A stretch of 64,000 bases of DNA, from positions 124,001-188,000 of the forward strand of contig CACXMZ010000002.1 in NCBI GenBank assembly GCA_902768975.1. The letters run 5' to 3'. The notes under the pieces are model-generated. The model saw only the letters and a program-made list of their open reading frames with translations. It ran no database searches and was not told the origin of the DNA. Below, one piece after another: positions 36,003 to 59,247 of this stretch; the stretch's first letter is position 1; every line of letters begins with the position of its first letter. Source of the stretch: an uncultured Coriobacteriaceae bacterium. GTDB lineage: Bacteria; Actinomycetota; Coriobacteriia; Coriobacteriales; Eggerthellaceae. The translations under genes were made by a program, and so were the position numbers.

Positions 36003-36037
36003 TAAAATTTTTTCATCTACCATACGAGGTGATGAAA

Positions 36038-37201: not shown

Positions 37202-37264
37202 GTTGCACATACAAGCGGCATGATGCACCCCAGCAAGGCGCAGTTCCTGCAGAAAGGAAACACC

Positions 37265-38761: not shown

Positions 38762-38786
38762 TAACGCCAGGGGCACGCTGCTCTAC

Positions 38787-38860
38787 TATCCGTTTATTGG
38801 GACTATCGGTTAAAGCGGAATCGGTACCATTCTTTTTGTATCCAACAGGAAGGATGTACC
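38787..38860 (+). promoter_or_regulatory. Operator O2 and RBS-hiding leader hairpin
   Basis: TATCC-GTTTATTG-GGACT (38787-38804) is the WYL operator with one half-site change. After it, GGTACCATTCTT (38823-38834) pairs with AAGGATGTACC (38850-38860), an 11-bp stem with one bulge that covers the Shine-Dalgarno AGGAAGGA and ends at the ATG. The same arrangement recurs at 39969 and 46872. Confidence 0.7.
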
Positions 38861-39460: not shown

Positions 39461-39478
39461 GAAGTGGAAAGATCTACC

Positions 39479-39968: not shown

Positions 39969-40042
39969 TGTCCGTTTATTGGGACTTGGAATAGCGGCGG
40001 AATCGGTACCATTCTTTTTGTACCCAACAGAAAGGATGTGCC
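39969..40042 (+). promoter_or_regulatory. Operator O3 and RBS-hiding leader hairpin
   Basis: GTCC-GTTTATTG-GGAC (39970-39985) is the WYL operator. GGTACCATTCTTT (40005-40017) pairs with AAAGGATGTGCC (40031-40042), which contains the ribosome binding site and ends at the ATG. The A-T pair of O2 is a G-T pair here, so the stem is kept. Confidence 0.7.
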
Positions 40043-41464
40043 ATGAAAAGTAAACAAGCGACCGCTAACCAGGCCAGCAACCCCAGCAACCCCAGCAACC
40101 ACCGCACCCCCACCAACCAAGCATTTGACAAAATCATCGGCTACGAATGGGTGAAGGACGAACTCCGCATCCTGGCCAGCATCTTGCGCAACGCAAAAGA
40201 CTACACTGCCCGCGGTTGCGAACTCCCGCACGGCATCATGTTCGAAGGCGAGCCTGGCCTTGGCAAAACACTCATGGCTGAATGTTTCATCGAAGCAAGC
40301 GGATGCAAAAGCTTTACCGTGCGCAAGACCAACATGGGCAACAACTTTTTGGAAGATCTGCAGTCTGCCTTTGACCAAGCAATTGCCTACTCCGAAAAAA
40401 CTGGCAACGTGTCTATTGTGCTCTTAGACGACTTGGATAAGTATTCTTCACTCGATGGCCCCAGGAGCACCACCGAAGAGTTTTCCGCTGTCCAAAGTTC
40501 CATGGAGCGTTGTAAAAATCTGCCTGTATTTGTAATCGCTACAGTAAATGCACCCCACCTGTTGCCGGAATCACTCCGCAGGGCAGGCCGCTTTGGCAAG
40601 AAGTTCAAAATAAGCGCTCCCAGCATGGAAGAGCAGGAAATAATCGTTGCCAAGTACGTCCATGGGTTGCAGGAAACATTCAAAGACATCAGCATAGACT
40701 CCAACATCGAATTCTTAGCAAGGCTGTTTAACGTTGAACCATTCTCTGCCATGGAAACCGCGCTCAACTACGCTGTTGCTCGCGCAATCTACCGCAAGCG
40801 CAAAAAAGTAAGCCAGAAAGACATTATCGAAGCACTCATTGGCTATTCAATTGAAGGCACAGATCGCCCCTTTGCACCCTTCTTCGAAAAACGTACTGAA
40901 CAGCGGATGCGTATTGCCATTCACGAAGCTGGACACGTGGTGGTTGCGGAGGCACTTGCACCTAAGTCGGTAGCGTATGCAGCAATCGTGCACCACGACA
41001 CTGGCCTGGGCGGTAGCACAAGTCATGGCCTCGCGCGCGGAGGCATGAACCCTATAGACGCTGAACGTATGCGCATCATGGTTGGTCTTGGCGGTGCTGT
41101 TGCGACAGAGCGCGAGTTGGGCATAACAGACGGTGGTTTCGCTAACGATTTAATGAAGGTGGTGGGCATTGCCGAATCCCTGGTAACCCGTTTGGGCGCA
41201 TATGGCGTGCGCAACGCTGCTGAATATATGAGCCGCAATCAGGAAGACAATGCCGTAGCGCATTACCAGGATGCAGAAATTGCGATGTGTCGTGAAAAGA
41301 CCATGGCCATCCTGGCAGAAAATCGCGAATTCTTGCTGGAAGTGGCAAGCATTATTTACGAAAAGGGCCTGGCTACCTACAGCGACATCCAGAAGGCCAA
41401 GATGTGCCTGTACCGCAATGCCAACCCCAACGCAGACGCTTTTACCACCTACGACGTGGCTTAA
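40043..41464 (+). CDS. Soluble FtsH-like AAA+ metalloprotease
   Basis: This 473-residue protein has an FtsH-type AAA module with intact Walker A (GEPGLGKT, about residue 68) and Walker B (IVLLDDLDK), then an M41 peptidase domain with HEAGH (about residue 294) and the third zinc ligand Asp in GGFANDLMK. The N-terminal 30 residues are rich in Asn, Ser, Pro and Thr and there is no transmembrane segment, unlike FtsH (about 600-650 residues). It should be a cytosolic ATP-driven protease, the one fully active ATPase in this locus by motif. A built-in proteolytic effector or regulator of the neighbouring DnaA-like proteins is an inference. Confidence 0.8.
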   Translation: MKSKQATANQASNPSNPSNHRTPTNQAFDKIIGYEWVKDELRILASILRNAKDYTARGCELPHGIMFEGEPGLGKTLMAECFIEASGCKSFTVRKTNMGNNFLEDLQSAFDQAIAYSEKTGNVSIVLLDDLDKYSSLDGPRSTTEEFSAVQSSMERCKNLPVFVIATVNAPHLLPESLRRAGRFGKKFKISAPSMEEQEIIVAKYVHGLQETFKDISIDSNIEFLARLFNVEPFSAMETALNYAVARAIYRKRKKVSQKDIIEALIGYSIEGTDRPFAPFFEKRTEQRMRIAIHEAGHVVVAEALAPKSVAYAAIVHHDTGLGGSTSHGLARGGMNPIDAERMRIMVGLGGAVATERELGITDGGFANDLMKVVGIAESLVTRLGAYGVRNAAEYMSRNQEDNAVAHYQDAEIAMCREKTMAILAENREFLLEVASIIYEKGLATYSDIQKAKMCLYRNANPNADAFTTYDVA

Positions 41465-41497
41465 CGTGTGTATGCGTATATATTTGGAAGGAAAACA

Positions 41498-42706
41498 ATG
41501 TTTGAAATCAAAGGAATTTACGAAACAGCGAAGTGTTACGCCATCAACATCGAAGAGAACGCCATTGAACAAATTCGCGCGATGTGCGATCAGCCTTTCA
41601 CTAAGGATGCCAATGTGGTTATCATGCCCGACGCACATGCGGGAATCGGCTGCACCATCGGCACCACCATGAAGGTAGTCGATGCCGTCGTACCCAACAT
41701 TGTGGGCGTAGATATAGGTTGCGGTATGTATACGATTGACCTTGGGAAGGGCAACATTAGCCTACCCGCCTTGGATGACGCATGCCACACGGTACCTAGC
41801 GGCAAGCATGTATGGGAAGGGCGTCGCGAGCGCTTCGACTTGCAAGAGCTGCGTTGCTATCGACACCTACGTGACGCCAAGCGCATTGAGCGCAGTATTG
41901 GTACGCTGGGCGGCGGCAATCATTTCATCGAGATAGATGTTGCAGACGACGGGACGCAGTACCTGGTCATTCATAGTGGCAGCCGTAACCTGGGCAAGCA
42001 AGTGGCTGAGTACTACCAAGCATTGGCGGTAGACCTGCACAGTGGCAAGGAGGAGTACTTCGTTGCACGTGACGCGCTGATTGCAAAATATAAGGAAGCT
42101 GGGCGCCGCTCTGAAATCCAGACAGCGCTGAAGGATTTGGCTACACGCTTTGAAGCGAAGGAACCCGACGCACCGGCAGAACTATGCTGGCTGTATGGTA
42201 GCTACCTGGATGACTATCTGCACGACATTGCCGTCTGCCAGCGCTTCGCAAAACAGAACCGCGAATCTATAGCACGCGAGGTCCTGCAGCTGACAGGCCT
42301 GGACGGCCATGACGCTTTTCATACGGTGCACAACTATATCGATACTAATGAAATGGTGTTGCGCAAGGGTGCCATCGCTGCACATGAAGACGAGATAGTG
42401 CTCATCCCGCTGAACATGCGCGACGGCAGCGTATTGGCACGCGGCAAGGGCAACGCCGAGTGGAACAACTCAGCACCCCACGGAGCAGGACGCTTAATGT
42501 CACGCCTTGTTGCAAAAGAAACGTTGTCAATGGATGACTATCGCGCGCAGATGGAGGGTATCTATACCACCAGCGTGTCTGAGCGCACCCTCGACGAGGC
42601 TCCTGATGCATATAAGGCGGCGGACGACATCATGGGCGTTATTTCGGATGCCGTGGACGTACAAGACGTTTTGCGCCCTATCTACAACTTCAAAGCGCAG
42701 AACTAA
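41498..42706 (+). CDS. rtcB: RtcB-family RNA ligase
   Basis: This 402-residue protein has the RtcB motifs: MPDAHAGIGCTIGTT, VGVDIGCGMYT, GGGNHFIE, HSGSRNLGK and the guanylated histidine region NNSAPHGAGRLMSR (His about 328). RtcB joins RNA ends with 2',3'-cyclic phosphate or 3'-phosphate to 5'-OH ends, using GTP and manganese. No archease (its usual activator) is adjacent. In this locus it could repair RNA, for instance tRNA cut by toxins. ATG 41498 follows GGAAGG; upstream starts lack a site. Confidence 0.85.
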   Translation: MFEIKGIYETAKCYAINIEENAIEQIRAMCDQPFTKDANVVIMPDAHAGIGCTIGTTMKVVDAVVPNIVGVDIGCGMYTIDLGKGNISLPALDDACHTVPSGKHVWEGRRERFDLQELRCYRHLRDAKRIERSIGTLGGGNHFIEIDVADDGTQYLVIHSGSRNLGKQVAEYYQALAVDLHSGKEEYFVARDALIAKYKEAGRRSEIQTALKDLATRFEAKEPDAPAELCWLYGSYLDDYLHDIAVCQRFAKQNRESIAREVLQLTGLDGHDAFHTVHNYIDTNEMVLRKGAIAAHEDEIVLIPLNMRDGSVLARGKGNAEWNNSAPHGAGRLMSRLVAKETLSMDDYRAQMEGIYTTSVSERTLDEAPDAYKAADDIMGVISDAVDVQDVLRPIYNFKAQN

Positions 42707-42727: not shown

Positions 42728-43693
42728 ATGAACACACAGCGCACACCTACACTCTTTTCCACGTCTAAAAACAGGACGCGCAAAATGCAGTCCATTGATA
42801 CCGCACTCGAAATGGCGTTTGCAGAAATTACGAGCGTGTGTGAGCAGGGACCCACTATTCTGGGCGCACCAACTGGTTATAAGGCCCTCGACCGCATACT
42901 GTGCGGCATCCGCCCAGGCGAAATAACCCACGCTGCTGCCACAACCCTAGAAATCGGCACAGCATTCCTCTACAACGTGGCGCTCAACGCTGCAAAAGCC
43001 GGGGAACAAGTGCTGTTCCTTACGCTTAACGCCAGCACGCAGCTTGCGGCGGAATACCTCCTGAGCGTTGAAAGCAGTATTAGTCTTGAACGCCTGCACC
43101 TGGGCAAACTCACGGAAGACGACTGGGACGCACTTTCGCAGGCTACTAATTGGCTCAACCAGCTGGACATCCAGTTTTTTGACTACCCCATGCTAACCAC
43201 AACAGAACTCATGGAGCTTCTGCGGGAAGCAATCAACGAAGGGCCACGCCGCCCGCTCATTGTTGTTGAAAGCGACGACTTTGCTATGCCTTACCTTTCG
43301 GGCGAGCACGCTTACAGAACACGCGAGCCCCTCTACGGCTTTTTGGCATTTGCGCGCGCTAAAGGAGTTTCGGTTTTGTTGGGCGACTTATTGCCAGACA
43401 GGGAAGGCTACTCGTACACCAACTATTACTTCGACAAGATGTGTTGCGCTGGTTCAATACTAAAGATTGACGAAGGTGTTCCTACTGCAGAAGGCGCGCA
43501 TGAAACTATTACGGTTGATGTTATTAAGAACAGCCATGGGCCTAAAGGGAGTGTTGTTCTGCTTTATAACCCTGCTACGCACGCCATAAAAAGCCGCTAC
43601 AACGTGGCGGAAGACGGCGACTATGAGGACATTAGCTATGAAGAGCTCAAAAAGATGTTTGAGGAAGAAAATAGCACGAGCAAGAAACAATAG
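42728..43693 (+). CDS. DnaB-like RecA-fold protein lacking a P-loop
   Basis: This 321-residue protein follows the DnaB helicase C-terminal domain: GAPTGYKALDRILCGIRPGE, AAKAGEQVLFLTLNASTQLA, then KLTEDDWDALSQATNWLNQL. DnaB has AARPSMGKT after the first block; here it is AAATTLEIGTA, without the P-loop lysine. Walker B is VVESDD rather than MIDY. The N-terminal helicase domain is absent. The last 22 residues (EDISYEELKKMFEEENSTSK) are almost those of the protein at 49824, also at DNA level. GTGAGAAAAGGTAACC precedes the ATG. Likely a non-hydrolysing DnaB mimic. Confidence 0.7.
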   Translation: MNTQRTPTLFSTSKNRTRKMQSIDTALEMAFAEITSVCEQGPTILGAPTGYKALDRILCGIRPGEITHAAATTLEIGTAFLYNVALNAAKAGEQVLFLTLNASTQLAAEYLLSVESSISLERLHLGKLTEDDWDALSQATNWLNQLDIQFFDYPMLTTTELMELLREAINEGPRRPLIVVESDDFAMPYLSGEHAYRTREPLYGFLAFARAKGVSVLLGDLLPDREGYSYTNYYFDKMCCAGSILKIDEGVPTAEGAHETITVDVIKNSHGPKGSVVLLYNPATHAIKSRYNVAEDGDYEDISYEELKKMFEEENSTSKKQ

Positions 43694-43813
43694 GGGCAAG
43701 CTGCTGCCAAATAATATCGTTCTAAAAGCATTACAATTATGAACAAAACCGCTTGTTACTTGGATAATGGTACCTATGAAAGAAAAGCTCGTCGAAGCGT
43801 GAAAGGAGTAACA

Positions 43814-44563
43814 ATGGAACTAGTAACTTCAGAACAATTCACTAAGCTTGAACAAGAAATTCGCGACCATCTTGATGAAGCACGAGAAGACAGAGAAGAG
43901 CTAAAAGACGGCTGGCCTTCGGAGCTGCTTTTCCTTTGCGACGTCTGGGCAGAAATGCAGGAGCTTTTTTTCGAAAACGGCATCACGGATGACTTCGTTT
44001 TCAAAAAAGTACCGGGCAAATCCGGCAGCACACCCCCAACAATTGAAGATTACAACGAAGAAAAAGTTACGGCATTTGGGCAGCTCATTGGCGATTTGAT
44101 TATTGCAATTAATCCCGCAATGTATGCAAGCCCAAATCCAGAACAGCCATTTTCTGATGTTCTTAAGTTCAAGAACAGAGAACAATTCATATTTCAGACA
44201 TTGCCACCGCTAGACCAATGGAAACAGGGGTGGAAAGTTAACGCTCGGGGCGAATGGAAAATGTGGACCTATCGCTTTAACGATGACGTATGGTTTGAGC
44301 TGTACGAGGAAGATCCCGAGGACGATGGCAATATGCGCTATTTTGCACAGCTTTGCGTTCCTAAGGAGCCCATAACAATGAAAGGCACAACGGCAAGGAA
44401 CTGGTTCCTGCTGGGATATGCCGACACGGAAACAGAGCGCTTTATTAACAAAGAATCGGAAAAGTACTATCACACTTATCCGTTAATGCCGTGCACAACT
44501 GCATACGATGCCTGGCTCATGGCCTTGGACTACTGGCAGGGCATTGCATATAGGTATTTGTAA
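43814..44563 (+). CDS. Protein of unknown family in the WYL locus
   Basis: This 249-residue soluble acidic protein reads MELVTSEQFTKLEQEIRDHL at its helical N-terminus. The second half is rich in aromatic residues (WKVNARGEWKMWTYRFNDDV, RNWFLLGYADTETERF). I recognise no domain. AAAGGAGTAACA precedes ATG 43814. The leader contains AAAAGCTCGTCGAAGCG (43782-43798), the same 17 bases found at the end of the DUF2779 gene at 38733-38749, so part of that region was copied here. It lies between two genes of the WYL locus on the same strand. Confidence 0.6.
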   Translation: MELVTSEQFTKLEQEIRDHLDEAREDREELKDGWPSELLFLCDVWAEMQELFFENGITDDFVFKKVPGKSGSTPPTIEDYNEEKVTAFGQLIGDLIIAINPAMYASPNPEQPFSDVLKFKNREQFIFQTLPPLDQWKQGWKVNARGEWKMWTYRFNDDVWFELYEEDPEDDGNMRYFAQLCVPKEPITMKGTTARNWFLLGYADTETERFINKESEKYYHTYPLMPCTTAYDAWLMALDYWQGIAYRYL

Positions 44564-44606: not shown

Positions 44607-45773
44607 ATGGACATAGCCACTAGTGACAATACCCTGACGCGCATTGAACAATTGCTTGAAGCTTTTGCTCAAGCAGAGTTTTCTACAAGCTCTCATGAAA
44701 CAACCTTCATGGAGGCCTTGGGCGTTAGTAGTAAAGAGGTGCCTGTTTCATCGCTGCTTGCCTTCTTATTGGATCCAAATGAAAGCCATGGGTTGGGAAC
44801 CCTCTGGATAGATGCCCTTGTTGCCGCATACGCATCCCGTTTGGATAGAGAAGTTATAGTCGACGCAGTAGAAAATGTTGAGACAGAAGAATCAACAGGA
44901 AACAGAAAGCGCATTGATATTGTTATCGAAACTGGTAACCGAATTATTGCAATAGAGAACAAAATATATGCTGGACTTAACAATCCACTCGGAGACTATA
45001 AAAAATATATTGAGAAGGAAACGACCGAGCGAGGGAAAGAAGAAAGCCCAATTCTTATCGTTCTCTCATTGTTTCCGCTAACGCCAGATGATAAGGACTT
45101 TGCAAATATTACCTATGAGCAACTCTTTGCAGAAGTCCGCAAACGCCTTGGTGACCACTTCTCTGCAGATAAGGCGCATTGGACAATTTATATAGATGGA
45201 TTCATGAAATCGATAAGTAATTTGGAGAACACCATGGCTTTTAATCCCGAATATGACGAATTGTTATCGAAGCACTATGAAGCTGCTTTCGATTTCATTT
45301 TGTGGCGCAAAACCTATATTAAAGAAACGAAGGCAGAATTGTGCCGAATAATAGATGCGATTGATTTTGTTGACGAAGGGCTTTTGGCCGAAGGTGATTA
45401 TAAAGTTTTTGCTTGGAACAGCAGTTATTATTACTGCTGTTATTGCATAGACATCAATCTACCGCTAGACCATATTATTGCGATTGAGAACAATAAGAGC
45501 GTGCTGACGGTAGAAACCTGGCGTACGAAAAGGGATGGCTGGGTTATTACTCTGTTTGTCCGAAGCGGTGGCGACAGTGCAGCAAGTTTGATTGGTAAAT
45601 TGCTCGATAAAGCGGGCATCAAGTGGCAAATCGCGAAGTACTACGGTAAAGAAGAAAGACGTTATCTAGAAGTTGAGCACCTTGATTACGAAGCTGATGA
45701 CAGCGCTGTTCGTGATGCTATTCGTCGAGCAGTTTCTTATGCAAAGAAGGTCATAACGGTCGGTTGTGAATAG
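44607..45773 (+). CDS. PD-(D/E)XK nuclease family protein
   Basis: This 388-residue protein has a PD-(D/E)XK core, RIDIVIETGNRIIAIENKIY (Asp, then Glu-Asn-Lys; residues about 99-118), preceded by LLAFLLDPNESHGLGTLWID, the usual start of the PDDEXK_4 family. The C-terminal 180 residues contain aromatic and charged blocks of unknown fold. The family is common in defence islands, where members cut DNA or are its targeting parts. AAAGGAGCG precedes ATG 44607. It ends 82 bp before a lipoprotein gene. Confidence 0.75.
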   Translation: MDIATSDNTLTRIEQLLEAFAQAEFSTSSHETTFMEALGVSSKEVPVSSLLAFLLDPNESHGLGTLWIDALVAAYASRLDREVIVDAVENVETEESTGNRKRIDIVIETGNRIIAIENKIYAGLNNPLGDYKKYIEKETTERGKEESPILIVLSLFPLTPDDKDFANITYEQLFAEVRKRLGDHFSADKAHWTIYIDGFMKSISNLENTMAFNPEYDELLSKHYEAAFDFILWRKTYIKETKAELCRIIDAIDFVDEGLLAEGDYKVFAWNSSYYYCCYCIDINLPLDHIIAIENNKSVLTVETWRTKRDGWVITLFVRSGGDSAASLIGKLLDKAGIKWQIAKYYGKEERRYLEVEHLDYEADDSAVRDAIRRAVSYAKKVITVGCE

Positions 45774-46642: not shown

Positions 46643-46873
46643 AGCAAGGACTTCTCTCTGCTTACACTTGCAGCTGCCACGCCAACTTCCACGATAGACC
46701 TTGTCGGAGTGGTCTTGAAGCGCGCTTATCCAAGGCCCTGCTCCTCTTGTGCCAAGGCAATTACTGCTACTGCCAAGTTATTGCAAGAGCGTTGGAGTTA
46801 TGCCAGCTCTACTGCTACTTACGTTGCATTAGGAATGGCGTTCAACCCCGTAGATGCAAGTGCTCTTTTTTAG
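46643..46873 (+). other. Gene-poor stretch with a possible gene stub
   Basis: Between 46534 and 46948 no convincing gene is present. One frame without a start codon reads SKDFSLLTLAAATPTSTIDL, VGVVLKRAYPRPCSSCAKAI and TATAKLLQERWSYASSTATY before ending at the WYL operator. It could be a decayed gene tail. I give it little weight. Confidence 0.25.
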
Positions 46874-46948
46874 TCCGTTTATTAGGACTCTGAACAAAAT
46901 CAAAATCGGTAACATCCTTCTTGTGCCTGACGGGAAGGATGTTGACCT
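46872..46948 (+). promoter_or_regulatory. Operator O4 and RBS-hiding leader hairpin
   Basis: AGTCC-GTTTATTA-GGACT (46872-46889) is a perfect WYL operator. GGTAACATCCTTC (46908-46920) pairs with GAAGGATGTTGACC (46934-46947), 13 pairs with one bulge, covering the RBS and ending next to the ATG. Compared with O2 and O3, both arms changed together (ACATCC with GGATGT), which supports a real RNA stem. Confidence 0.75.
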
Positions 46949-47494
46949 ATGGGAAAGTCTTGGCGAAGCGAAGCAAACCTAGAATGCGACCTTGTAGAGG
47001 ATCCGCATGCAGACGAAAGCCAGCCGCGATGGGAAGCACACGACAGATTCCTTAAAGTTGCTCAAGCTTATTTCTGGGACTGGATCGTAAATTTCTATAA
47101 CGCTGCCCTCACGGGTGGGTTTGAAGTTAAAAGCGAACGAGACACGCTTGTAAACCCATTCGAACACTACGCTTCTTTCAAGCTAAAGGACGGCAGCGAA
47201 TACTACGCTACTCGCCCCTTCCATGTGCATTTCAAATTAGTTGTCCATCCAAGCAGTGTGGACAAAGAAGATCTAAAGAACTTAAAGCTTTGCTTCAAGA
47301 CAATACGATTTGAAGGCATGGAGTTCAGCGGCGAAGGCGACCTTATTGGCTATATCAAGCAGCTCCTTGGGGTGGCAGCATGGTGCAAATCCATCCAACG
47401 TCACAAAATTACTGGCCGGCGTGCATCTAGCCCTTGGGAGCCCAAACCCAACTGGCACAAACATCTACAGGCAAGCTCTAACAAAAACAAGTAA
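46949..47494 (+). CDS. Protein of unknown family, first gene after O4
   Basis: This 181-residue basic protein includes FLKVAQAYFWDWIVNFYNAA, HYASFKLKDGSEYYATRPFH and VHFKLVVHPSSVDKEDLKNL. The C-terminus is rich in Trp, Lys and His (ASSPWEPKPNWHKHLQASSN). No domain recognised. It is translated from the hairpin leader O4 and lies 11 bp upstream of the FtsK-DnaA fusion gene, so the two and the following gene form one operon. Confidence 0.6.
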   Translation: MGKSWRSEANLECDLVEDPHADESQPRWEAHDRFLKVAQAYFWDWIVNFYNAALTGGFEVKSERDTLVNPFEHYASFKLKDGSEYYATRPFHVHFKLVVHPSSVDKEDLKNLKLCFKTIRFEGMEFSGEGDLIGYIKQLLGVAAWCKSIQRHKITGRRASSPWEPKPNWHKHLQASSNKNK

Positions 47495-47505: not shown

Positions 47506-49833
47506 ATGACCATTTTGAAATCATTTAGCGACCATCAAAACAATGAAGTGCAAAGTGATGTCGCGAAGCTCCAGGACGCGCTACAGGAAATGGATGCCCA
47601 CACCGCAGACCTAATTAATGAAGCCCTGAGGGACTTCAATATTGACGCTTCGGTGGTCGACTGGATTCATGGTCCTACGGTTACGCTTTTCAAGCTAGAC
47701 ATAGCACCGGGCGTACGCGTAAGCAAAATCGAAAACTTTACAGACGATCTTGCACGCACCCTTACAGCACCAAGCATCCGCATGCTGTGCCCTGTTCCTG
47801 GCACCAAATACGTTGGGCTTGAGGTTCCACATATCAAGGAATACAACCAGATACCGCTACTGCAAAATACGCTCGCTAACCGACCAGAGGGGCTCATGCA
47901 GATTCCTATCGGTATAGATGTGAATGGCGACACCGTATTCGACGACCTTACAGAAATGCCCCACCTTATTATTGGTGGCGGTCCTGGGTCTGGTACAGGC
48001 GTGTTCATTGAAGGTATGCTCTATGCGCTTCTCAGCCATAAAGAATCTGCAAATATCGAACTCATCCTCATCGACCCACTGCGTGTGAACTTTACTGTTT
48101 ACAAAGACATCCCGCATTTAATCGCTCCTGTTATTGTAAACCCAGAAGATGCAGCACGGGCACTATCGTGGGCAGCAAATGAAATGGAACGCCGCCTCAA
48201 GGCGCTTGCGTCAGCCGGCGTGCGCACTATAGAGCAATACAACAACTATGTTGTTGACGAGATGGTGGCAAAGGAAAACTCTGGTGAAGAAACAGATGCA
48301 GGCATTGACCGGCTAACCCATATAGTTATTGCTATCAATGATTTAGCCAATCTTATGTTGTCGCAGGGCCCAGCGAGTCTTATAGAGCAGTCAATCGCAC
48401 GCATTGCCCTACTGGGGAAGGCAGCAGGCATTCATCTGATACTGTCAACAGCAAAACTGGGGACAAGCGTGCTCACGGGGCCTATGAAGGCAAACATCCC
48501 ACATCGAATTGCATTTGGAACAACGGGCAGTCTCGAAAGCCGTGTCATCCTTGACACCGCGGGCGCAGAAAAACTAGTTGGTAACGGAGACTTGCTTTAT
48601 AGCAAACCTGATTATCCCAAGCCTGTCCGCTTGCAAGGCTTCTTTATATCTCGCAATGAAACAAAACAGCTAACGGGCGCCCTGCGGGAAGAACATGGAC
48701 CGCGCTATAGGGACGAAATACTGCAAACTGAAATCCCTGAAATAAAACCCTTAAAAAATTTTGAGAAAGAACCTGAACCAGAAGAAGACCCTCTTCTTTG
48801 GCATGCTGCAAAGCTGGTTGTAGATACTGGATTAGGATCTTACGCTAATATCCAACGACATTTGCAGGTGGGCTACTCACGTGCCAATCGCATAATAGAT
48901 TCATTGGAAAAACTAGGTGTAGTAGGCCCTCCTAATGAATCCCGACCGCGTGATGTGCTTATAGATGCAACTGAACTTGATGAGCTCCGCACGAAAATGC
49001 TATTTGAGCAAGTAAGTCCAAAAGCCTCCGCCACAGAAAAGCAGACGTTTAAAAATTTCATTGTGGGTCCATCAAATTATATGGCTTATGCTATGGCGCG
49101 CTGTGTTGCAGAAAACCCTGGCGAACCATTTTTAAATCCTGTGTTTATCTACGGTCCTCCGTCGTGCGGCAAAACACATCTTTTGTGCGCAATCAAAAAC
49201 TACGTGGCTACACATAAGCCCGACCAAAAGGTTATCTCCTTAGATGCAAATGACTTCGTAGCAGACTATTGCAACGCAGCTTTGAGGGGCGGAGACAATA
49301 AAAAGGAATTTAAAGAAAAGTATTTGCAAGCTAGCATCCTTATGATTAGCAATGTTCAGATGCTCCAAGGAATGAATGAGACCCTTTCGATACTCTTTCA
49401 AATATTGCGTATCCTGGTTGACCAAGGATGCCAGGTGGTATTTACGGCAGATAGGCGGCCATGGCATATAGATATCGATAAACGCTACACGGCGCGATTC
49501 GTCTCGGGCATTATTTGCCCAATTCAACCACCAGAGTATGAGGTACGTCTTAGTTTTGCTAACCAGTACATAAAAGTTCTTAGGCATAAGCTAGCCGAAG
49601 TTTCTAAGCATGACTGGCATATTCAGCCAGAAGTTTGCCACGCTATAGCGGGTCGTCTAACAAATATGGCGTACATAAAAGGGGCGCTCGGTATGTTTGC
49701 CTTCCAAGCAGCAAAAAGGGGAGATAGCTACCTTACGATGCCCTACGTTAATAAGGTGCTTAGCGAATTCCCTCAAGCTCATGCCACTTCTGAACCATCC
49801 AACAATACTGCTAGAGGTACGTCATGGACATAA
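47506..49833 (+). CDS. FtsK motor-gamma region fused to DnaA AAA+ domain
   Basis: This 775-residue protein joins two families. Residues 40-400 follow the FtsK/SpoIIIE core: VVDWIHGPTVTLFKLDIAPG, MPHLIIGGGPGSGTGVFIEG, ANIPHRIAFGTTGSLESRVI, GNGDLLYSKPDYPKPVRLQG. The P-loop lysine is a threonine (GPGSGTG), and Walker B is AINDLAN instead of VIDELAD. Residues 428-495 match FtsK gamma (GSYANIQRHLQVGYSRANRI). Residues 510-765 match DnaA domain III: FKNFIVGPSNYMAYAMARCV, FIYGPPSCGKTHLL with an intact P-loop, but Walker B LMISNVQ instead of LLIDDIQ and no sensor 2 arginine. AGGAGGAG precedes the ATG. By motif it may bind but not turn over ATP. Confidence 0.75.
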   Translation: MTILKSFSDHQNNEVQSDVAKLQDALQEMDAHTADLINEALRDFNIDASVVDWIHGPTVTLFKLDIAPGVRVSKIENFTDDLARTLTAPSIRMLCPVPGTKYVGLEVPHIKEYNQIPLLQNTLANRPEGLMQIPIGIDVNGDTVFDDLTEMPHLIIGGGPGSGTGVFIEGMLYALLSHKESANIELILIDPLRVNFTVYKDIPHLIAPVIVNPEDAARALSWAANEMERRLKALASAGVRTIEQYNNYVVDEMVAKENSGEETDAGIDRLTHIVIAINDLANLMLSQGPASLIEQSIARIALLGKAAGIHLILSTAKLGTSVLTGPMKANIPHRIAFGTTGSLESRVILDTAGAEKLVGNGDLLYSKPDYPKPVRLQGFFISRNETKQLTGALREEHGPRYRDEILQTEIPEIKPLKNFEKEPEPEEDPLLWHAAKLVVDTGLGSYANIQRHLQVGYSRANRIIDSLEKLGVVGPPNESRPRDVLIDATELDELRTKMLFEQVSPKASATEKQTFKNFIVGPSNYMAYAMARCVAENPGEPFLNPVFIYGPPSCGKTHLLCAIKNYVATHKPDQKVISLDANDFVADYCNAALRGGDNKKEFKEKYLQASILMISNVQMLQGMNETLSILFQILRILVDQGCQVVFTADRRPWHIDIDKRYTARFVSGIICPIQPPEYEVRLSFANQYIKVLRHKLAEVSKHDWHIQPEVCHAIAGRLTNMAYIKGALGMFAFQAAKRGDSYLTMPYVNKVLSEFPQAHATSEPSNNTARGTSWT

Positions 49834-51077
49834 GCAAAGACAACATTGACCAAGTCTGGGAGCAAGTAGCTACGCGGCTAAAAAGCGAGTATCCCAAAGA
49901 TGCCTTGTCTTTTGATTCAATCTTTGCCCATGTCAGTCCTGTTTACAACAACGACGGTGCTGTCACTCTAGTCGCTGACACACTATCGTTCAAAAAATGG
50001 ATCGAACTGAACTATCTTGCTTCTATTAGCGACGTCTTCTGCAGCGTATGCAACGATTACGTAAAGGTTAGGGTGTCTAGCATTCCAAGCTGCGAAACCA
50101 TTCCTATAGACCGAGGCCTTGAATTTGCCTTTAGTGAAATCGTAGTAAGGACGCAGCCAAGCCCGAAGACCCAGACAGTCGGCATTTCCACCAGTCTTAA
50201 AGACCTTGACGAATCAACAGGGGGCCTGCGGAACGGACAGCTGGCTGTTCTTTCTGGCAGGGCATACACACAAGAGTTCGCCATTAACCTTGCCATTACC
50301 GCAGCAAAAAATGGAGTACGCGTTTACTACTTCAGTATGAGCCGCAGCCTCCCAATAATTGCGCAGTCCTTTTTATACCTAGAAGCAGGCATTGCGAGTT
50401 ACAGAATGGCGTCTGGCCATTTGCGCGAAGTCGACTGGCAATATCTTGCCGACACAACAGGCTATCTTTCCAAGCTCGATATCAACTTCATTGATTCCCC
50501 TTGTGTTACCTGCGAAGAAATCGAAAACACAGTAGCGCTTGCACGCAAAGGGAAAAAGGACGTTCTTGTTGTAGTTGACCAGATTGACCAAATGGACGCC
50601 CCAGACGAGCTGCGCCAAAAAGACCGCAAACAACAAATTGCGGGAATCGTGCAGGGGCTTCAAAAGGCCGCTGTGTCGATGGACGTTCCCGTACTTGCAT
50701 TGTCCAGCATTGCGCGCGCCCATCAATATGAAAGCCAGCGCCCCAGGATTGAAGACATGGAATATGCAGACCCTATTCGCTTATATGCCGACGTAGTTAT
50801 GCTTCTTGATATGTGCCTGGGTTCTATTGAAGAAGAAATGGATAGCAGACCCGCCATAGACGAAGCTTGGGTCTACCTTGACAAAAACAGGAACCAAGCC
50901 CATGGGTGGATTGGGCACAGATTAGGCTTCGATAGAGCTATCGGAACCTTCTATGACTACGTCTCTAGAGACAAATCGGCGAACCCACGGGAAGAAGAGC
51001 AATGGGAAGACATCTCCTACGAAGAGCTCAAAAAGATGTTTAAGGAAGAAAATAGCACGAGCAAGAAAAACAAATAG
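49824..51077 (+). CDS. DnaA domain I fused to DnaB-like RecA-fold domain
   Basis: This 417-residue protein starts with a DnaA domain I: IDQVWEQVATRLKSEYPKDA, TLVADTLSFKKWIELNYLAS, ISDVFCSVCNDYVKV. Residues 115-395 follow the DnaB C-terminal domain: VGISTSLKDLDESTGGLRNG, GVRVYYFSMSRSLPIIAQSF, VLVVVDQIDQMDAPDELRQK. The P-loop is SGRAYTQEF in place of ARPSMGKT. In bacteria, DnaA domain I binds DnaB, DiaA and other partners; here the two are one chain. The tail EDISYEELKKMFKEENSTSK nearly repeats that of 42728. It overlaps the FtsK-DnaA gene by 10 bp. Confidence 0.7.
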   Translation: MDISKDNIDQVWEQVATRLKSEYPKDALSFDSIFAHVSPVYNNDGAVTLVADTLSFKKWIELNYLASISDVFCSVCNDYVKVRVSSIPSCETIPIDRGLEFAFSEIVVRTQPSPKTQTVGISTSLKDLDESTGGLRNGQLAVLSGRAYTQEFAINLAITAAKNGVRVYYFSMSRSLPIIAQSFLYLEAGIASYRMASGHLREVDWQYLADTTGYLSKLDINFIDSPCVTCEEIENTVALARKGKKDVLVVVDQIDQMDAPDELRQKDRKQQIAGIVQGLQKAAVSMDVPVLALSSIARAHQYESQRPRIEDMEYADPIRLYADVVMLLDMCLGSIEEEMDSRPAIDEAWVYLDKNRNQAHGWIGHRLGFDRAIGTFYDYVSRDKSANPREEEQWEDISYEELKKMFKEENSTSKKNK

Positions 51078-51088
51078 GCAGCTGTACG

Positions 51089-51736
51089 CTAGATCATAAA
51101 ACGGTATAGAGGCAGCGTCAGGAATGTTGCTACAACCAGTATGACTACCGTGACAAGCATTGCAGTATTGATACGCTTGTTCATGCGAACCTTGCCAAGC
51201 GATTCTTCGACACTGTACCCAAGGGCAAAGCCGGTAAGCTTGCTCTTTTCTTCACAATCCCTATTGAGCAATCCATCCCGGCCATCTACCACTATTACTT
51301 CTGGTTGATCGACCTGCATTGCTTTTCCTTCTGTGGCAGAAATCTTAGAGAGCAAAATATCGGGTATGCAGTCCTCGGGGTCGCCTGCTGAAACAAAAGC
51401 GATAATGCGTGCCGATTCGTGCAAGTCAATATACGTTTCAATCTCGCGTAGGATCCGAGCGTCTTCTTTTGCATCGGGCGAGCAAATTACGACAAGAGTG
51501 CTTGCCTGTGCAAGTGCTTCGACAATGTTTTCAGACAGAGGGTCCGAACCTGAATACTCATATTCGCTCGGGAAGCATGGGTTCTTTGGAACGCCAGTAA
51601 AAAGACTTTTCCTGTCTGCCAACAAAGACGGGCGGGAGCAGTTTTCAATAAGAAACTGAACGCGGCGAGCAGCACTCGCGTCTTGCGGCAAGTGTTTGTA
51701 GCTAATAAATGCTGCGTATTTGTAGTCTGTTGTCAT
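51089..51736 (-). CDS. TIR-domain protein with C-terminal membrane anchor
   Basis: This 215-residue protein has a TIR domain (residues 1-170): YKYAAFISYKHLPQDASAAR, SDPLSENIVEALAQASTLVV, then ICSPDAKEDARILREIETYI with the glutamate at the catalytic place of NAD-cleaving TIRs. Residues 190-212 form one transmembrane helix (TAMLVTVVILVVATFLTLPL). A membrane-held TIR is typical of an effector or sensor that depletes NAD on infection. It is the last gene of a minus-strand group with the CoiA-like gene, and converges on the WYL locus with 11 bp between stops. Confidence 0.75.
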   Translation of the reverse strand: MTTDYKYAAFISYKHLPQDASAARRVQFLIENCSRPSLLADRKSLFTGVPKNPCFPSEYEYSGSDPLSENIVEALAQASTLVVICSPDAKEDARILREIETYIDLHESARIIAFVSAGDPEDCIPDILLSKISATEGKAMQVDQPEVIVVDGRDGLLNRDCEEKSKLTGFALGYSVEESLGKVRMNKRINTAMLVTVVILVVATFLTLPLYRFMI

Positions 51737-53603: not shown

Positions 53604-53817
53604 GACAACCTCCTTTGACGATTCGACGAGATCACTTATCTCCTTCTGGTTATATAACTGGACAAAAAGGACGTTTTTAAGCGATAGGTAATAAAAAATT
53701 TTGATTTTTTTATTCTTGAAACGATAAGATATGATTCTGTAGCACTAAAGAGCCCGTCAGGGCGCTTGTAACAACAGTACGAAGCAATAGAACAGCTTTA
53801 GAATAAGGTCGTTGCTC

Positions 53818-54429
53818 ATGAAAAAGTTTTTTCTGGTTACATCGCATCTTCCTGAAGATAAGCTTGTCGAGCATTCTTATGAACCTGTCGACAATGCAAA
53901 TCTTGTTTATGGAAATGTACACTTTCCTATAGTACCCCTCATTAATGCTCATGTTAAAAATGGTGATGCTATTAAAGTGGTGACGGTTACCTACGACACT
54001 CCTAATTGCCATAGGAATCTAAAATTGCTAGAAAGCGAAATCAGTCAGGTTTGCGCAGAAAACAATGCGACATATGAGCTCGAATCAATCGAAGTACCCT
54101 TCGATGACAGCATTAAAGCTATCCTCAATGTTTATCAGCAACTCATTACTCGCGTTGAAGACGGCGATGATCTTTACGCTGACATTACATATGGTTCTAA
54201 GCCCATGCCAATTGTGCTTACCATGGCACTCCAATACGCATATCGTATAAAAGAAAACGTGTCTATTGAGTGCGTAATCTATGGGCAAATTAGCCATCAT
54301 AAGGAAACCCAAGATGCGAAAATCTATGATGTCACGGCGCTTGTACAACTCGACGAGATAGTAAACCTCATGGCTGAAGGGCGTGTTGCTGACCCAGCGA
54401 CTGTTATAAATCTATTGCTTGGTGATTAG
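53818..54429 (+). CDS. CARF-like sensor domain protein (TM1812/Csx2-like)
   Basis: This 203-residue protein resembles the CARF domains of the TM1812/Csx2 group: an N-terminal MKKFFLVTSHLPEDKLVEHS strand and loop, and the key block DLYADITYGSKPMPIVLTMA then LQYAYRIKENVSIECVIYGQ. In TM1812-like proteins the corresponding block is DITHGFRSLP. CARF domains bind cyclic oligoadenylates; some also cut them. No effector domain is attached and no CRISPR array or type III genes are in the window. It is followed 8 bp on by a sigma-like gene. ATG 53818 follows AAGG. Confidence 0.6.
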   Translation: MKKFFLVTSHLPEDKLVEHSYEPVDNANLVYGNVHFPIVPLINAHVKNGDAIKVVTVTYDTPNCHRNLKLLESEISQVCAENNATYELESIEVPFDDSIKAILNVYQQLITRVEDGDDLYADITYGSKPMPIVLTMALQYAYRIKENVSIECVIYGQISHHKETQDAKIYDVTALVQLDEIVNLMAEGRVADPATVINLLLGD

Positions 54430-54437
54430 GGTTGGGT

Positions 54438-55598
54438 ATGGAGGCATTTCAACCTTCAAATAAAGACTCAAGAGGCAGGAGAAAGACCTCGCCTCACGCA
54501 GACGAGTTCTACTCGCGACATATTCACTCTTTGAAAGACCCTGCCTTAGAAGCTGAAATAAACAGAATTGCTGAACGATTAAGCGGCGCCCGATCCTCTC
54601 AATCTACCGCAAATGAGCTTGCCTTAAAGGAGAAGCTTTATGCTAAGTGTATGAAGTTCTTTTTCATTACGGGTCAAAATGTGAGCATCGATTTCGAAGA
54701 CGCATCGCATTATGGTAGTTACACCAAGATTGATGATATTTTTATTGAAGCTTTAAAAGAGACTATAGACCACTACGATGCCTCTGAGGGTAATGAGAGG
54801 TCATTCACGCACATGGTCCGTTTCTACTACGACAAAAGAAAAATCGACGCAGCATATTTGGCCGCTGAGGAAGACTCGGCATTTGGAGGAAGCGATACAG
54901 GTGCATTAATTAGTCTAAATGACCAAGTTAGAAGGAATGATGACGGCTCTACAACACTGGAAGACCTCGTACCATCCCCAGATAATGATGGAGACTATGG
55001 TGCTCCGCTTGATCAAACGTGGGTAGAAATAGATGAGCGGGAGATAGTAGGCGTAGCTGATGCGTTAGAAGAAACTGCTTTGATAGAAGATTTCTCTACC
55101 GATGACGCATCTGGGTACGCTGCAGATAGAGTCGATGAAAGAATACTTCTGCGATTGCTTACTATTATTACTGGCTTTCTCGGGAAATCTGGGCGAGAAG
55201 CAAATGAGACGAGAAAACTGTATACAAAAATGTTTTTCTCCGAGACAGTAACACGAACGACAAAGGTTAGGGTCGAGGGCGAACTTGCACCACTGCAGAA
55301 ACTTGAAAAGGCGCTATTTGCTTCGATTGAACTGCCTTTTCAGGACTCTTATACGGTACTGAGATGCAGGACTATTAAGCAGCTGTGGAAAACCGAATTC
55401 ATTGATGGGATAAGCGAAGTGGGTCGGCCGTTCAACGATATTGCGTCAAAAAGTGATTTGGCGCCGGGCTATAGCTGGACGTTGCCAGGGAAAGCGTATA
55501 TTTCATACCTCAATTCGATCGGACGCGCTGCTTCAGACGCACTGGTTTCTCAACAACGTGCTAGATATGATGAGTTGCTACGGGCTCTTAGGTCCTAA
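54438..55598 (+). CDS. Divergent sigma-factor-like protein
   Basis: This 386-residue protein has a region reminiscent of sigma-70 region 2 and linker: IDDIFIEALKETIDHYDASE, GNERSFTHMVRFYYDKRKID, then LISLNDQVRRNDDGSTTLED, like the SLD...GxxxLED element of sigma factors. The C-terminal 100 residues (FNDIASKSDLAPGYSWTLPG, KAYISYLNSIGRAASDALVS) may be a degenerate DNA-binding region. It may redirect RNA polymerase or mimic a sigma factor. The assignment rests on pattern only. It is the second gene of a three-gene group with the CARF-like gene. Confidence 0.45.
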   Translation: MEAFQPSNKDSRGRRKTSPHADEFYSRHIHSLKDPALEAEINRIAERLSGARSSQSTANELALKEKLYAKCMKFFFITGQNVSIDFEDASHYGSYTKIDDIFIEALKETIDHYDASEGNERSFTHMVRFYYDKRKIDAAYLAAEEDSAFGGSDTGALISLNDQVRRNDDGSTTLEDLVPSPDNDGDYGAPLDQTWVEIDEREIVGVADALEETALIEDFSTDDASGYAADRVDERILLRLLTIITGFLGKSGREANETRKLYTKMFFSETVTRTTKVRVEGELAPLQKLEKALFASIELPFQDSYTVLRCRTIKQLWKTEFIDGISEVGRPFNDIASKSDLAPGYSWTLPGKAYISYLNSIGRAASDALVSQQRARYDELLRALRS

Positions 55599-56561: not shown

Positions 56562-56624
56562 AATACAAAGTTCTGGAAGTCAACATCCAATGTTTCAAGG
56601 AAGCGAATTATTGAACTTTGTATT
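56562..56624 (+). promoter_or_regulatory. Inverted repeat enclosing the sspD start
   Basis: AATACAAAGTTC (56562-56573) and GAACTTTGTATT (56613-56624) are 12-bp perfect arms. The TTG start codon of sspD (56618) lies in the right arm and the RBS AAGGAAG in the loop. ACATCCAATGT also occurs twice nearby (56517, 56584). If the RNA folds so, the start codon is closed. Confidence 0.55.
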
Positions 56625-58336
56625 GCACGAAATGTAATCGAGAAACGGACAGTACGATATGTCCCGAATGCGGCGGGGAAACAACAGACGCTGCCCCTCA
56701 CGCTGTATATTGGTGTGACACTTGCAATATTCCGCTCATTAGCACTCCTGGAAAAACAAAGATAACATGCCCTGCTTGCGGTGAAGAGGCACGCTACCTT
56801 TGCGCAGATCTGCGCCCGGTCTTTCCCGAAGAACGCCTCTTGTTTGAAATAATGACGGATAGGCCTCTTTGCTACTTACATGATTCCGTGTGGGCGGTAA
56901 GCAGTAGATATTATGTTAACGGTAAACCGCACAATGTCTCCGTTGCTGAAATAACTGCTTTGAATCCGCAGGACGTAAGGAGCAAGCTTAAAGCTTACTC
57001 CTCGCAAAACAGCGACACCGACTTTCTCTGCTATATCAATGCGTTTGTTAAGGCAAATACTCCTCATTTAAACGGTCTAATAAGTGAGGCTTGTAGCTTC
57101 ATAATCGAAGCGTCTAGAGGGTATTCGGAAGAGAATATTGTTGTTTCTTTTTCAGGCGGTAAAGACTCGACCGTTACTGCAGACTTAGCTGTCCGAGCGT
57201 TGAGCAACCCTTACCTCGTACACATATTTGGAGATACAACGCTTGAATTTCCAAGCACTACCCAATATGCAAAACGATTTAGGGAAAGTCATCCACTTGC
57301 AATTTTTAAAACAGCGCGTAACAACGAACAGTCTTTTTACGATATGGCAGATGAAATTGGTCCTCCGTCAAGGGTAATGAGATGGTGCTGCTCCATGTTT
57401 AAAACAGGGCCTATTTCAAGAGCATTTAAAAGTCTGTACGGCGATCAACCCATCCTGACCTTCTACGGTATTAGGAGGGGCGAATCTATTTCGCGCAGTA
57501 AGTACAATCGGATTGAAGACAATGCAGAGGCGGTAAAAATACAGCGACAAAGAGTTGCTTCACCTATTTTCAACTGGGGTGATATTGATGTATGGCTCTA
57601 TATCCTGGCGGAAGGCATAGACTTCAATGATGCCTATAGGCTTGGCTACGAGCGCGTGGGCTGCTGGTGTTGCCCAAATAACAATCCCCGTGCCCAATTT
57701 CTTTCGCAGATATATATGCCAGAAGAGTCAGAGAAGTGGCACAACTTTCTTCTTGAGTTTGCAAAACGGATAGGCAAACCTGATCCCGAAGTATACGTTG
57801 ATACAGGAAAGTGGAAAGCACGTCAGGGCGGCAATGGCGTAGCAGCCGCTCGCAGCGTACAAATAGAAGCGAGCCACTGTGCAACCGAAGATAACGCAAT
57901 GATCTTTTCTCTCGAACGACCTTTCTCGGACGAGCTTGTTGGCCTATTTACGCCCATTGGAGACCATGCTCCTGGCCTGGGACGCACACTTCTTGAAGAA
58001 AGCGTCTTTATCGATAGAAAAACTAACGAGCCTCTACTGGCCATTATGCCTTTTACCCAGCCAGGCTATGAATATGCTGCAAAAGTGCGAATACTCAAAG
58101 AAGGCGACTCGGAGACCCTTCTGCGACAGGCGAGATACCAGGTGTTGAAATATAACGCCTGTCGCCAATGCTTGAAGTGTGAGTCCCTCTGTCGCTTTGG
58201 AGCGATTTCGATTTCGCCCGACGGATATCGCATAGACCCGTTGAAGTGTACCAAGTGCAAACAGTGCGTCACGGACAAGTACCTAGAAGGTGGCTGTTTG
58301 ATGAGAAAGTATTTGAAGACGAAGGACGAGCAGTAA
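56618..58336 (+). CDS. sspD: SspD-like PAPS-reductase-family ATP pyrophosphatase
   Basis: This 572-residue protein has N-terminal zinc ribbons (YCTKCNRETDSTICPECGGE, then WCDTCN and CPACGEE), a PAPS-reductase-type PP-loop domain with SFSGGKDSTVTADLAVRAL (about residue 178), RWCCSMFKTGPI and GCWCCPNNN. The C-terminal ferredoxin domain has CRQCLKCESLCRFG and CTKCKQC. SspD activates the DNA phosphate path for sulfur insertion with SspA in single-strand phosphorothioation. The extra ribbon and ferredoxin ends add metal sites beyond the core. TTG 56618 is the only in-frame start. sspB follows without a gap. Confidence 0.8.
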   Translation: MYCTKCNRETDSTICPECGGETTDAAPHAVYWCDTCNIPLISTPGKTKITCPACGEEARYLCADLRPVFPEERLLFEIMTDRPLCYLHDSVWAVSSRYYVNGKPHNVSVAEITALNPQDVRSKLKAYSSQNSDTDFLCYINAFVKANTPHLNGLISEACSFIIEASRGYSEENIVVSFSGGKDSTVTADLAVRALSNPYLVHIFGDTTLEFPSTTQYAKRFRESHPLAIFKTARNNEQSFYDMADEIGPPSRVMRWCCSMFKTGPISRAFKSLYGDQPILTFYGIRRGESISRSKYNRIEDNAEAVKIQRQRVASPIFNWGDIDVWLYILAEGIDFNDAYRLGYERVGCWCCPNNNPRAQFLSQIYMPEESEKWHNFLLEFAKRIGKPDPEVYVDTGKWKARQGGNGVAAARSVQIEASHCATEDNAMIFSLERPFSDELVGLFTPIGDHAPGLGRTLLEESVFIDRKTNEPLLAIMPFTQPGYEYAAKVRILKEGDSETLLRQARYQVLKYNACRQCLKCESLCRFGAISISPDGYRIDPLKCTKCKQCVTDKYLEGGCLMRKYLKTKDEQ

Positions 58337-59239
58337 ATGAAGATGAAATTCAAAGCACACCAGTCTTTCTTCATTAGAAAGGGCTGGTTAAGCAAGGGGC
58401 TCAAGGGAGTTCGAAGCAACAGCGCACTTCTGATGCCAAGCAACAACAAGGAAGCAATGGATGAGCTGGGTCTAGGCGCCAACCAGGTTGTAGCGCTGCG
58501 GTACTGGCTTCAGGCAACTGGCCTTATTGAATTAGGATACAGAAACCACGAGCACAGCATTACAGAGCTCGGTCATCTGATTCTTGATAACGATCCATTT
58601 ATTGAAGAGCTAGGCACGTTATGGGCTCTGCACTGCAACCTTGTTTCGGCACAAGAAGAGGCGGCTTCCTGGTATTTCCTTTTCAATGAATTTGGAATGA
58701 ATGTCTTTGGCAAGGACGACTTCACGCGCGCGATTTCGAAATACATACTCATCAATAACGACAAGGAGGATATAGCCCTTGCATCCCTCGACTCAGACTT
58801 TAGCTGCATTCTGAATACCTATATTCCACATAGCAAACTCGGGAGTAGTTCAATCTCGCCCGAAAACGTCATCGACTGCCCGCTTGGAGAACTAGGACTC
58901 ATCACTGTGGAAAGCAAGTCTGCAAAGACATACCGGAAGAAGACAGCTAATCCCAGCATGCTTCCCGGTCTGCTAGTTCTGTACTCGATAGCTTCAACCT
59001 TTGACGCAGCATCTCGGGAAACACCAGAAATACGATTCGAGATTCTCTTAGATGGGGCTGGGATGCCTGGACGCGTGTTCAACCTTGACTCTGTTGCGCT
59101 TTTATCAAAGCTGTATGAACTCGAAAACGAAGGCAGGCTTCGTGTAAGCAGGACAGCGGGAATTGACGTAGTGCGTCTTACGAACTCCTCCCTCTGCAAA
59201 GAAGACTGCCTGAGCGACTATTACAAGATGATGGGTTAG
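58337..59239 (+). CDS. sspB: SspB-like DUF4007 protein
   Basis: This 300-residue protein matches DUF4007, the SspB family: HQSFFIRKGWLSKGLKGVRS, MDELGLGANQVVALRYWLQA, then ITELGHLILDNDPFIEELGT and LWALHCNLV. SspB is described as the DNA-nicking member that opens one strand at the modification site. ATG 58337 directly follows the sspD stop. The gene ends 8 bp before sspC. Confidence 0.85.
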   Translation: MKMKFKAHQSFFIRKGWLSKGLKGVRSNSALLMPSNNKEAMDELGLGANQVVALRYWLQATGLIELGYRNHEHSITELGHLILDNDPFIEELGTLWALHCNLVSAQEEAASWYFLFNEFGMNVFGKDDFTRAISKYILINNDKEDIALASLDSDFSCILNTYIPHSKLGSSSISPENVIDCPLGELGLITVESKSAKTYRKKTANPSMLPGLLVLYSIASTFDAASRETPEIRFEILLDGAGMPGRVFNLDSVALLSKLYELENEGRLRVSRTAGIDVVRLTNSSLCKEDCLSDYYKMMG

Positions 59240-59247
59240 GAGGACGT

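Follow-up and report, generated by a model that had tools for sequence, protein, structure and literature searches.

A fusion of DnaA domain I to a P-loop-less DnaB domain among apparently disarmed copies of DnaA, DnaB and FtsK in an uncultured Coriobacteriaceae bacterium

Introduction

The genome of an uncultured Coriobacteriaceae bacterium (assembly GCA_902768975.1) carries, within the 64,000-nucleotide stretch of contig CACXMZ010000002.1 analysed here (positions 124,001 to 188,000; hereafter the window, whose own numbering is used throughout), an open reading frame for a protein of 417 residues in which domain I of DnaA is joined to the RecA-like domain of DnaB. A preliminary description of this DNA had placed the fusion, which we call the chimera, at 49824-51077, and had suggested that it forms a built-in, inactive loader-helicase contact that could block or capture the real DnaA or DnaB. 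That description was silent on the setting of the gene: the chimera is one of five apparently disarmed genes derived from DnaA, DnaB and FtsK, which share a locus with repeated operator-like sites. The two features of the chimera on which the analysis turns are as follows.

49824 to 51077, plus strand: the chimera, in which DnaA domain I is fused to the RecA-like domain of DnaB, the latter predicted to be catalytically dead (Pfam, AlphaFold2, fold search, conservation counts)
50253 to 50279, plus strand: SGRAYTQEF, residues 144-152, replacing the DnaB Walker A (alignment with the genome's own DnaB and 33 DnaBs of the family)

Results and Discussion

The chimera joins two recognisable domains

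The Pfam model DnaA_N (PF11638) matches residues 10-72 of the chimera (E 7.9e-9, 35.6 bits, cut-off 24.6), and this match is as good as that of the real protein, since the genome's own DnaA scores 34.2 bits. DnaB_C matches residues 120-373 (E 4.8e-33, 115 bits), with 323 bits for the genome's own DnaB. The N-terminal DnaB domain PF00772, present in the own DnaB, is missing from the chimera, and so are DnaA domains III and IV, pieces of which sit in neighbouring genes. No model in Pfam, PADLOC, NCBIfam or PHROGs covers the DnaA-DnaB combination.

The full chimera was modelled with AlphaFold2 from a 48-row alignment whose rows included 25 of the 33 family DnaBs, 19 of 20 family DnaA domain I pieces, the own DnaA, the own DnaB and a second DnaB-like protein of the locus. 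The model (mean predicted local distance difference test score (pLDDT) 83.8, predicted template modelling score (pTM) 0.66) has the helix-helix-strand-strand-helix-helix order of DnaA domain I (helices 8-22 and 24-35, strands 37-41 and 47-51, helices 54-63 and 65-76, then a strand at 82-86; block pLDDT 81-95 across residues 1-80), followed by the DnaB RecA-like domain; in the Protein Data Bank (PDB), the matches listed for the complete model are helicases of the DnaB type. When residues 1-90 were modelled alone and without an alignment, the order of elements was the same (pLDDT 69, pTM 0.56), and the top three of 350,542 PDB chains in a fold search were DnaA domain I, although these matches are weak in absolute terms (4tps_B, E 0.087; 4tps_D, E 0.13; 2e0g, E 0.57). 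The best chain in a plain sequence search of the PDB is also DnaA domain I, at only E 0.53. The preliminary description had staked its reading on the N-terminal 85 residues, and these take a domain I fold in both model and fold search; the fusion itself is borne out by Pfam, alignment and structure model.

The DnaB half has lost its catalytic and DNA-binding residues

The conservation counts use 34 DnaBs, the own protein and the 33 from the family; the latter are mostly the best-scoring matches to the chimera and lean towards the query, and a few of them are near-identical to one another. SGRAYTQEF aligns with the Walker A stretch of the own DnaB, as had been proposed: the Walker-A Lys and Thr are gone, and one of the eight residues of GxxxxGKT (own DnaB positions 216-223) is kept. 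At the positions that we take to be the catalytic Glu, the sensor Gln and the single-stranded DNA (ssDNA) loop, Glu246 and Gln368 are each replaced by Ser and RESG by EYAD. The chimera remains like the replicative helicase in its RecA-like fold, its Walker-B Asp (Asp325) and its arginine-finger residues (Lys430 and Arg432), but differs in lacking Walker A, catalytic Glu and ssDNA loop and in carrying DnaA domain I in place of the N-terminal domain. It retains 55 of the 144 columns that are invariant in the 34 DnaBs, and the losses are uneven: 2 of the 20 catalytic and ssDNA columns (Walker A, catalytic Glu, Walker-B Asp, sensor Gln, ssDNA loop) are kept versus 53 of the 124 elsewhere (one-sided Fisher p 0.0034, for positions that we picked from known DnaB motifs, a choice that leans towards the query). 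Alignment and model together indicate a DnaB domain that is catalytically dead with its fold kept. The chimera is neither DnaA nor DnaB in the working sense.

Domain I appears to have kept its DnaA contact and lost its DnaB contact

In Escherichia coli DnaA domain I, Trp6 serves dimerisation and Glu21 and Phe46 bind DnaB (PMC5448010). By analogy, the corresponding positions probably have the same roles in this organism. They were compared in 21 family DnaAs, a count that leaves out four loci (L055-L058), three of which repeat genomes already included and one of which (G070) does not. The Trp6 position is Trp in all 21 and in the chimera. At the Phe46 position all 21 have Phe and the chimera has Ser; at the variable Glu21 position (Ser in 12, Glu in 2) the chimera has Leu. 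The chimera is accordingly like DnaA domain I in score, topology and dimerisation Trp, and unlike it in the Phe46 position and in having no domains III-IV in the chain. A built-in loader-helicase contact is not supported by these residues. The canonical contact of domain I with DnaB looks lost, the contact with DnaA looks kept, and the latter is the better-preserved option because the dimerisation Trp is retained. Judged from its sequence, the chimera could possibly block or capture the real DnaA or DnaB.

Four further disarmed copies lie in the locus

38861 to 39460, plus strand: DnaA domain IV-like protein, 199 residues (sub-threshold Pfam match, E 0.0018)
39464 to 39943, plus strand: DnaA AAA+-like protein, 159 residues, without P-loop (Pfam Bac_DnaA 5.1e-10, alignments)
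42728 to 43693, plus strand: second DnaB-like protein, lacking both Walker A and the Arg of the arginine finger (Pfam, alignments)
47506 to 49833, plus strand: FtsK alpha, motor and gamma domains fused to DnaA AAA+ domain III, 775 residues (Pfam, alignments)

The gene for the FtsK-DnaA protein ends within the start of the chimera gene, with a 10-base overlap, and the other three genes sit 7-11 kb upstream of the chimera. In the FtsK motor of the FtsK-DnaA protein the Walker A Lys is Thr and the Walker B Asp-Glu is Asn-Asp; in the gamma domain, 39 of 54 invariant columns are retained along with most of the GYSRAGRIMD recognition helix. The DnaA part of the protein retains 61 of 88 invariant columns together with the P-loop Gly-Lys-Thr, and its Walker-B Asp-Asp is Ser-Asn. 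In the DnaA domain IV-like protein, GNRDHT of the own DnaA reads GEDYGA, and the second DnaB-like protein keeps 45 of the 144 invariant DnaB columns. The chimera ends in DISYEELKKMFKEENSTSKK; the two DnaB-like genes have a common C-terminal tail, with DNA 84% identical over 79 bases, and among 137 family genomes the tail DISYEELKKMF is confined to these two genes. To judge from their motifs, the DnaA, DnaB and FtsK copies are disarmed and the processing enzymes of the locus (the FtsH-like protease and RtcB, below) are not.

Hda, SirA and YfdR restrain DnaA, and the chimera resembles them in that it would contact DnaA. Hda is a DnaA-derived AAA+ protein. To our knowledge none of the three is a dead helicase fusion, and none is accompanied by FtsK and DnaB mimics. 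SirA binds DnaA domain I, as the title of PDB entry 4tps states, and YfdR, encoded by a cryptic prophage, also binds domain I (PMC5448010, PMC4776307). The locus might accordingly encode a Hda- or SirA-like regulator of host replication that belongs to normal stress physiology rather than defence, its DnaA-derived AAA+ and domain I pieces modulating DnaA at the origin. The retained dimerisation Trp agrees with this, as does the match of the Hda model TIGR03420 to the FtsK-DnaA protein at 4.3e-12. Such a regulator is nevertheless decidedly improbable, given its absence from the other 137 family genomes and the rest of the 396 class genomes at the threshold used, the defence-gene neighbours, and the inclusion of FtsK and DnaB mimics.

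Palindromic sites precede the transcription units

35975 to 36002, plus strand: perfect 10-bp inverted repeat with an 8-base gap, before the WYL gene (core common to the three downstream sites)
38787 to 38803, plus strand: operator-like site in the leader of the DnaA domain IV-like gene (pattern search)
39969 to 39985, plus strand: operator-like site in the leader of the FtsH-like gene (pattern search)
46872 to 46888, plus strand: operator-like site AGTCCGTTTATTAGGAC, about 60 bases 5' of the start codon of the chimera's unit (pattern search)
36029 to 37201, plus strand: WYL-type transcriptional regulator, which heads the locus (Pfam scores for WYL and WCX slightly under their cut-offs)

Four palindromic sites stand before transcription units of the locus. 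A 60-base leader is repeated before 38861, 40043 and 46949, and within the longer repeated stretch the core AGTCCGTTTNNTNGGACT is also the centre of the WYL-proximal inverted repeat. With up to two mismatches the window holds four operator-like sites, versus a shuffle mean of 0.69 and none of 100 shuffles reaching four, and 214,879 bases of 14 other loci hold two weak matches. The WYL-proximal palindrome is followed 3' by a T-run and may also be a terminator. The regulator itself is a tentative assignment from sub-cut-off Pfam matches (WYL 18.0 bits, cut-off 21.8; WCX 18.1, cut-off 23.9).

The arrangement resembles that of islands regulated by BrxR, a WYL repressor of defence islands that has one inverted repeat as its binding site ahead of its own gene and another within the island (PMC9122601): here too a probable WYL-type regulator comes first, with an inverted repeat before it and again inside. 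It differs in that no PADLOC model covers the chimera and that the FtsK-DnaA protein matches FtsK-domain and weak ATPase models only. In three other genomes (G041, G042 and G080) there are inverted repeats near the WYL-type genes, but they differ from this site.

Three further readings of these sequences were discarded. A wider regulon was rejected, the fifth site of the genome adjoining a gene that, from its sequence, reads as glycosyltransferase-like; an origin-like cluster of DnaA boxes was rejected on finding 4 boxes in the window versus 4.4 expected; and a known RNA element in the leaders was rejected on the lack of any Rfam match.

The frames are open and the locus is variable

Compared with the genome's own genes, the copies are at or near saturation at silent sites and have changed far less at non-silent ones, with a proportion of non-silent differences (pN) of 0.33-0.51, and each large domain contains no stop codon where 15-19 would be expected by a neutral count that is crude, part of the change falling on the branch of the own gene. 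Near-saturated silent sites in frames without stops argue strongly that these are not long-standing pseudogenes, and indicate selection for an open frame. They also bear on whether the locus is evolutionary debris, made of functionless gene copies that fused by chance as they decayed. The occurrence in one genome, the strong divergence and the odd splitting of DnaA over several genes would fit debris, yet open frames of 775 and 417 codons, a confidently predicted fold, and the common tail and operator-like sites join the silent-site evidence in making it the least likely explanation and a very improbable one.

The fusion was found nowhere else among 138 family genomes, where matches outside this genome are of DnaB type only and none of those listed extends below query residue 81, nor elsewhere in 396 class genomes (E up to 1e-38), again with DnaB-type matches only. 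Peptide patterns of 8 residues, which reach close relatives only, were run against the genomes of 84,980 species and against viral contigs, and gave no relative of the fusion. Among matches listed for the FtsK-DnaA protein in 137 family genomes, none spans both halves. The phage and plasmid matches listed for the chimera are, where annotated, mostly ordinary DnaB or primase/helicase; the sole phage match covering more than 80% of the query, from Marinitoga camini virus 1, was rejected as a relative, having a normal DnaB N-terminal domain. Open-licence papers yielded nothing like the chimera or the locus.

A sister genome (G034; DnaB 97% identical, 81% complete) has fragments 98% and 91% identical to genes flanking the chimera downstream, the 98% fragment, at locus L115 of G034, being part of the gene of the TIR-like protein. 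These lie beside other genes and without chimeras, for which reason we regard the region as a variable island. As to origin, the FtsK part groups with the bacterium's own genus and three neighbours (95/99) on a branch at its upper bound, the DnaB parts lie on saturated branches that make placement impossible, and genus-specific letters (3 of 13 FtsK columns, 3 of 14 DnaB columns) are indecisive. A copying of FtsK from this lineage is suggested mainly by the 52% identity of the FtsK part to the own FtsK.

The remaining genes of the locus and its defence setting

37220 to 38761, plus strand: second gene of the locus, for a DUF2779 protein that has Cas4-like and RNase H-like matches (Pfam)
40043 to 41464, plus strand: FtsH-like AAA+ / M41 protease, P-loop and HEAGH present (Pfam, motif check)
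41468 to 42706, plus strand: RtcB RNA ligase, signature motifs present (Pfam, motif check)
43739 to 44563, plus strand: 274-residue protein, with a relative in genome G080 that forms a fusion with a WYL-type regulator
46949 to 47494, plus strand: uncharacterised 181-residue protein that opens the chimera's transcription unit (open reading frame)

The motifs used for the FtsH-like and RtcB proteins are those that we presume to be characteristic of them. A relative of the FtsH-like gene adjoins a gene of WYL type in two genomes from a different genus, where RtcB is also encoded close by, and an RtcB relative at 81% is present in G032. The neighbourhood common to those two loci (L067 and L068, genus g14) comprises the FtsH-like AAA/M41 protease, the WYL-type regulator and RtcB, and by eye a release-factor-like gene can also be read in L067; it is possibly a defence or RNA-repair locus of its own. 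The WYL-type regulator shares 30% identity with the WYL half of the fusion protein of G080 (L042:8477-10153). The 181-residue protein has no match in Pfam, NCBIfam or PHROGs.

A PD-(D/E)XK nuclease-like protein (44607-45773) matches the phage-defence candidate PDC-S26 and stands in the same gene run as the dead mimics. Downstream, the chimera is followed by the gene of a TIR-like protein, that of a CARF protein, and a system of Ssp type.

Two explanations bear on this setting. The dead copies might be decoys or baits: by presenting the surfaces of DnaA, DnaB and FtsK they would titrate or sense phage proteins directed at the host versions, with the PD-(D/E)XK protein, the FtsH-like protease or RtcB providing the response. 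Dead active sites in kept folds, the copying of several different replication proteins within one locus, the defence-island setting with a PDC-S26-like nuclease, and variability between near relatives would all suit baits; a domain I bait, however, should keep its binding face, yet the Phe46 position is lost, as is the DNA loop of DnaB, and no phage protein aimed at these surfaces was identified. We judge baits unlikely. The other explanation is a structural or DNA-handling complex in its own right, for example a mobile-element replication or partition module built from host genes and using only the intact ATPase sites. It would account for the DnaA P-loop and gamma domain of the FtsK-DnaA protein and for a variable island in which the repetition of leaders and tails points to past duplication and rearrangement, but a general Pfam scan noted no integrase, relaxase or capsid gene among the neighbours, neither the DnaA-box signature nor the Walker B sites survive, and phage and plasmid records hold ordinary DnaBs; it seems to us quite improbable.

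A switched set of dead mimics as the tentative explanation

The explanation that we favour, and hold tentatively, is a WYL-switched set of dead DnaA, DnaB and FtsK mimics that poisons replication. The WYL-type regulator would bind the four sites and hold the set silent until called for; when a phage infects or DNA is damaged it would let go, and the dead mimics would be made together. The chimera would act as a dominant-negative adaptor. Because the dimerisation Trp is kept and the DnaB-contact Phe is lost, its domain I would pair with domain I of DnaA rather than make the canonical contact with DnaB, and its dead RecA-like domain, with arginine finger but without the residues for ATP use and ssDNA grip, would dock on host or phage DnaB, so that loading or unwinding stalls. 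The FtsK-DnaA partner, with a dead motor and a DNA-reading gamma domain, would have the same effect on the segregation side. The path from these sequences to replication arrest is one that we infer, and it is more doubtful than not.

Several observations weigh against a switched set of poisons. The locus is seen in one genome only, and what is said of the chimera's interactions and activity comes from sequences and models. In the AlphaFold2 model the linker 89-114, which contains the DnaB linker-helix sequence, has pLDDT <50. The second DnaB-like protein keeps 4 of 20 catalytic columns versus 41 of 124 elsewhere (p 0.18), no significant excess of loss, and lacks the arginine-finger Arg; its state could equally reflect general decay. 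The operator pattern was written after the sites had been seen, and two of the repeated leaders are evident duplicates of each other. With up to one mismatch, the pattern occurs five times across the 1.89-Mb genome, four of them in this locus, versus eight genome matches for the reversed control, so that the clustering of the sites, not their number, is notable. Finally, PADLOC returned no family for the chimera at E 0.01, and no known defence model matches it.

A new kind of arrest or defence, in which the WYL switch floods the cell with disarmed and shuffled DnaA, DnaB and FtsK and mixed dead assemblies halt both chromosome and phage replication, is on balance somewhat unlikely. We know of no described defence or dormancy system with such a switchable poison or bait set of replication proteins; the novelty lies in the composition of the locus, and its action is what we infer. 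If the explanation is right, proteins for copying and sorting the chromosome have been converted by a bacterium into switchable poison or bait subunits, and the locus would supply natural dominant-negative variants of DnaA, DnaB and FtsK with which the surfaces needed for helicase loading could be tested directly.

Further observations in the window

The end of the DUF2779 gene (38717-38764) recurs at the start of the gene for the 274-residue protein (43767-43814), 75% identical over 48 bases, a trace of segmental duplication within the locus. The TIR-like protein (51089-51736, minus strand) has a probable C-terminal membrane helix. In 53812-55598 the CARF-domain protein, whose best PADLOC model is CARF2 (E 9.6e-69), is directly followed by a 388-residue protein without a confident family match. 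Four genes in 56618-63995 match models for a BrxP/SspD-like phosphoadenosine phosphosulfate (PAPS) reductase, SspB, SspC and SspA/DndA, and by these matches form an Ssp-type DNA phosphorothioation system. On the minus strand, 10438-21537 encodes a repeat-rich, surface-type protein of 3,699 residues with a C-terminal anchor-like segment.

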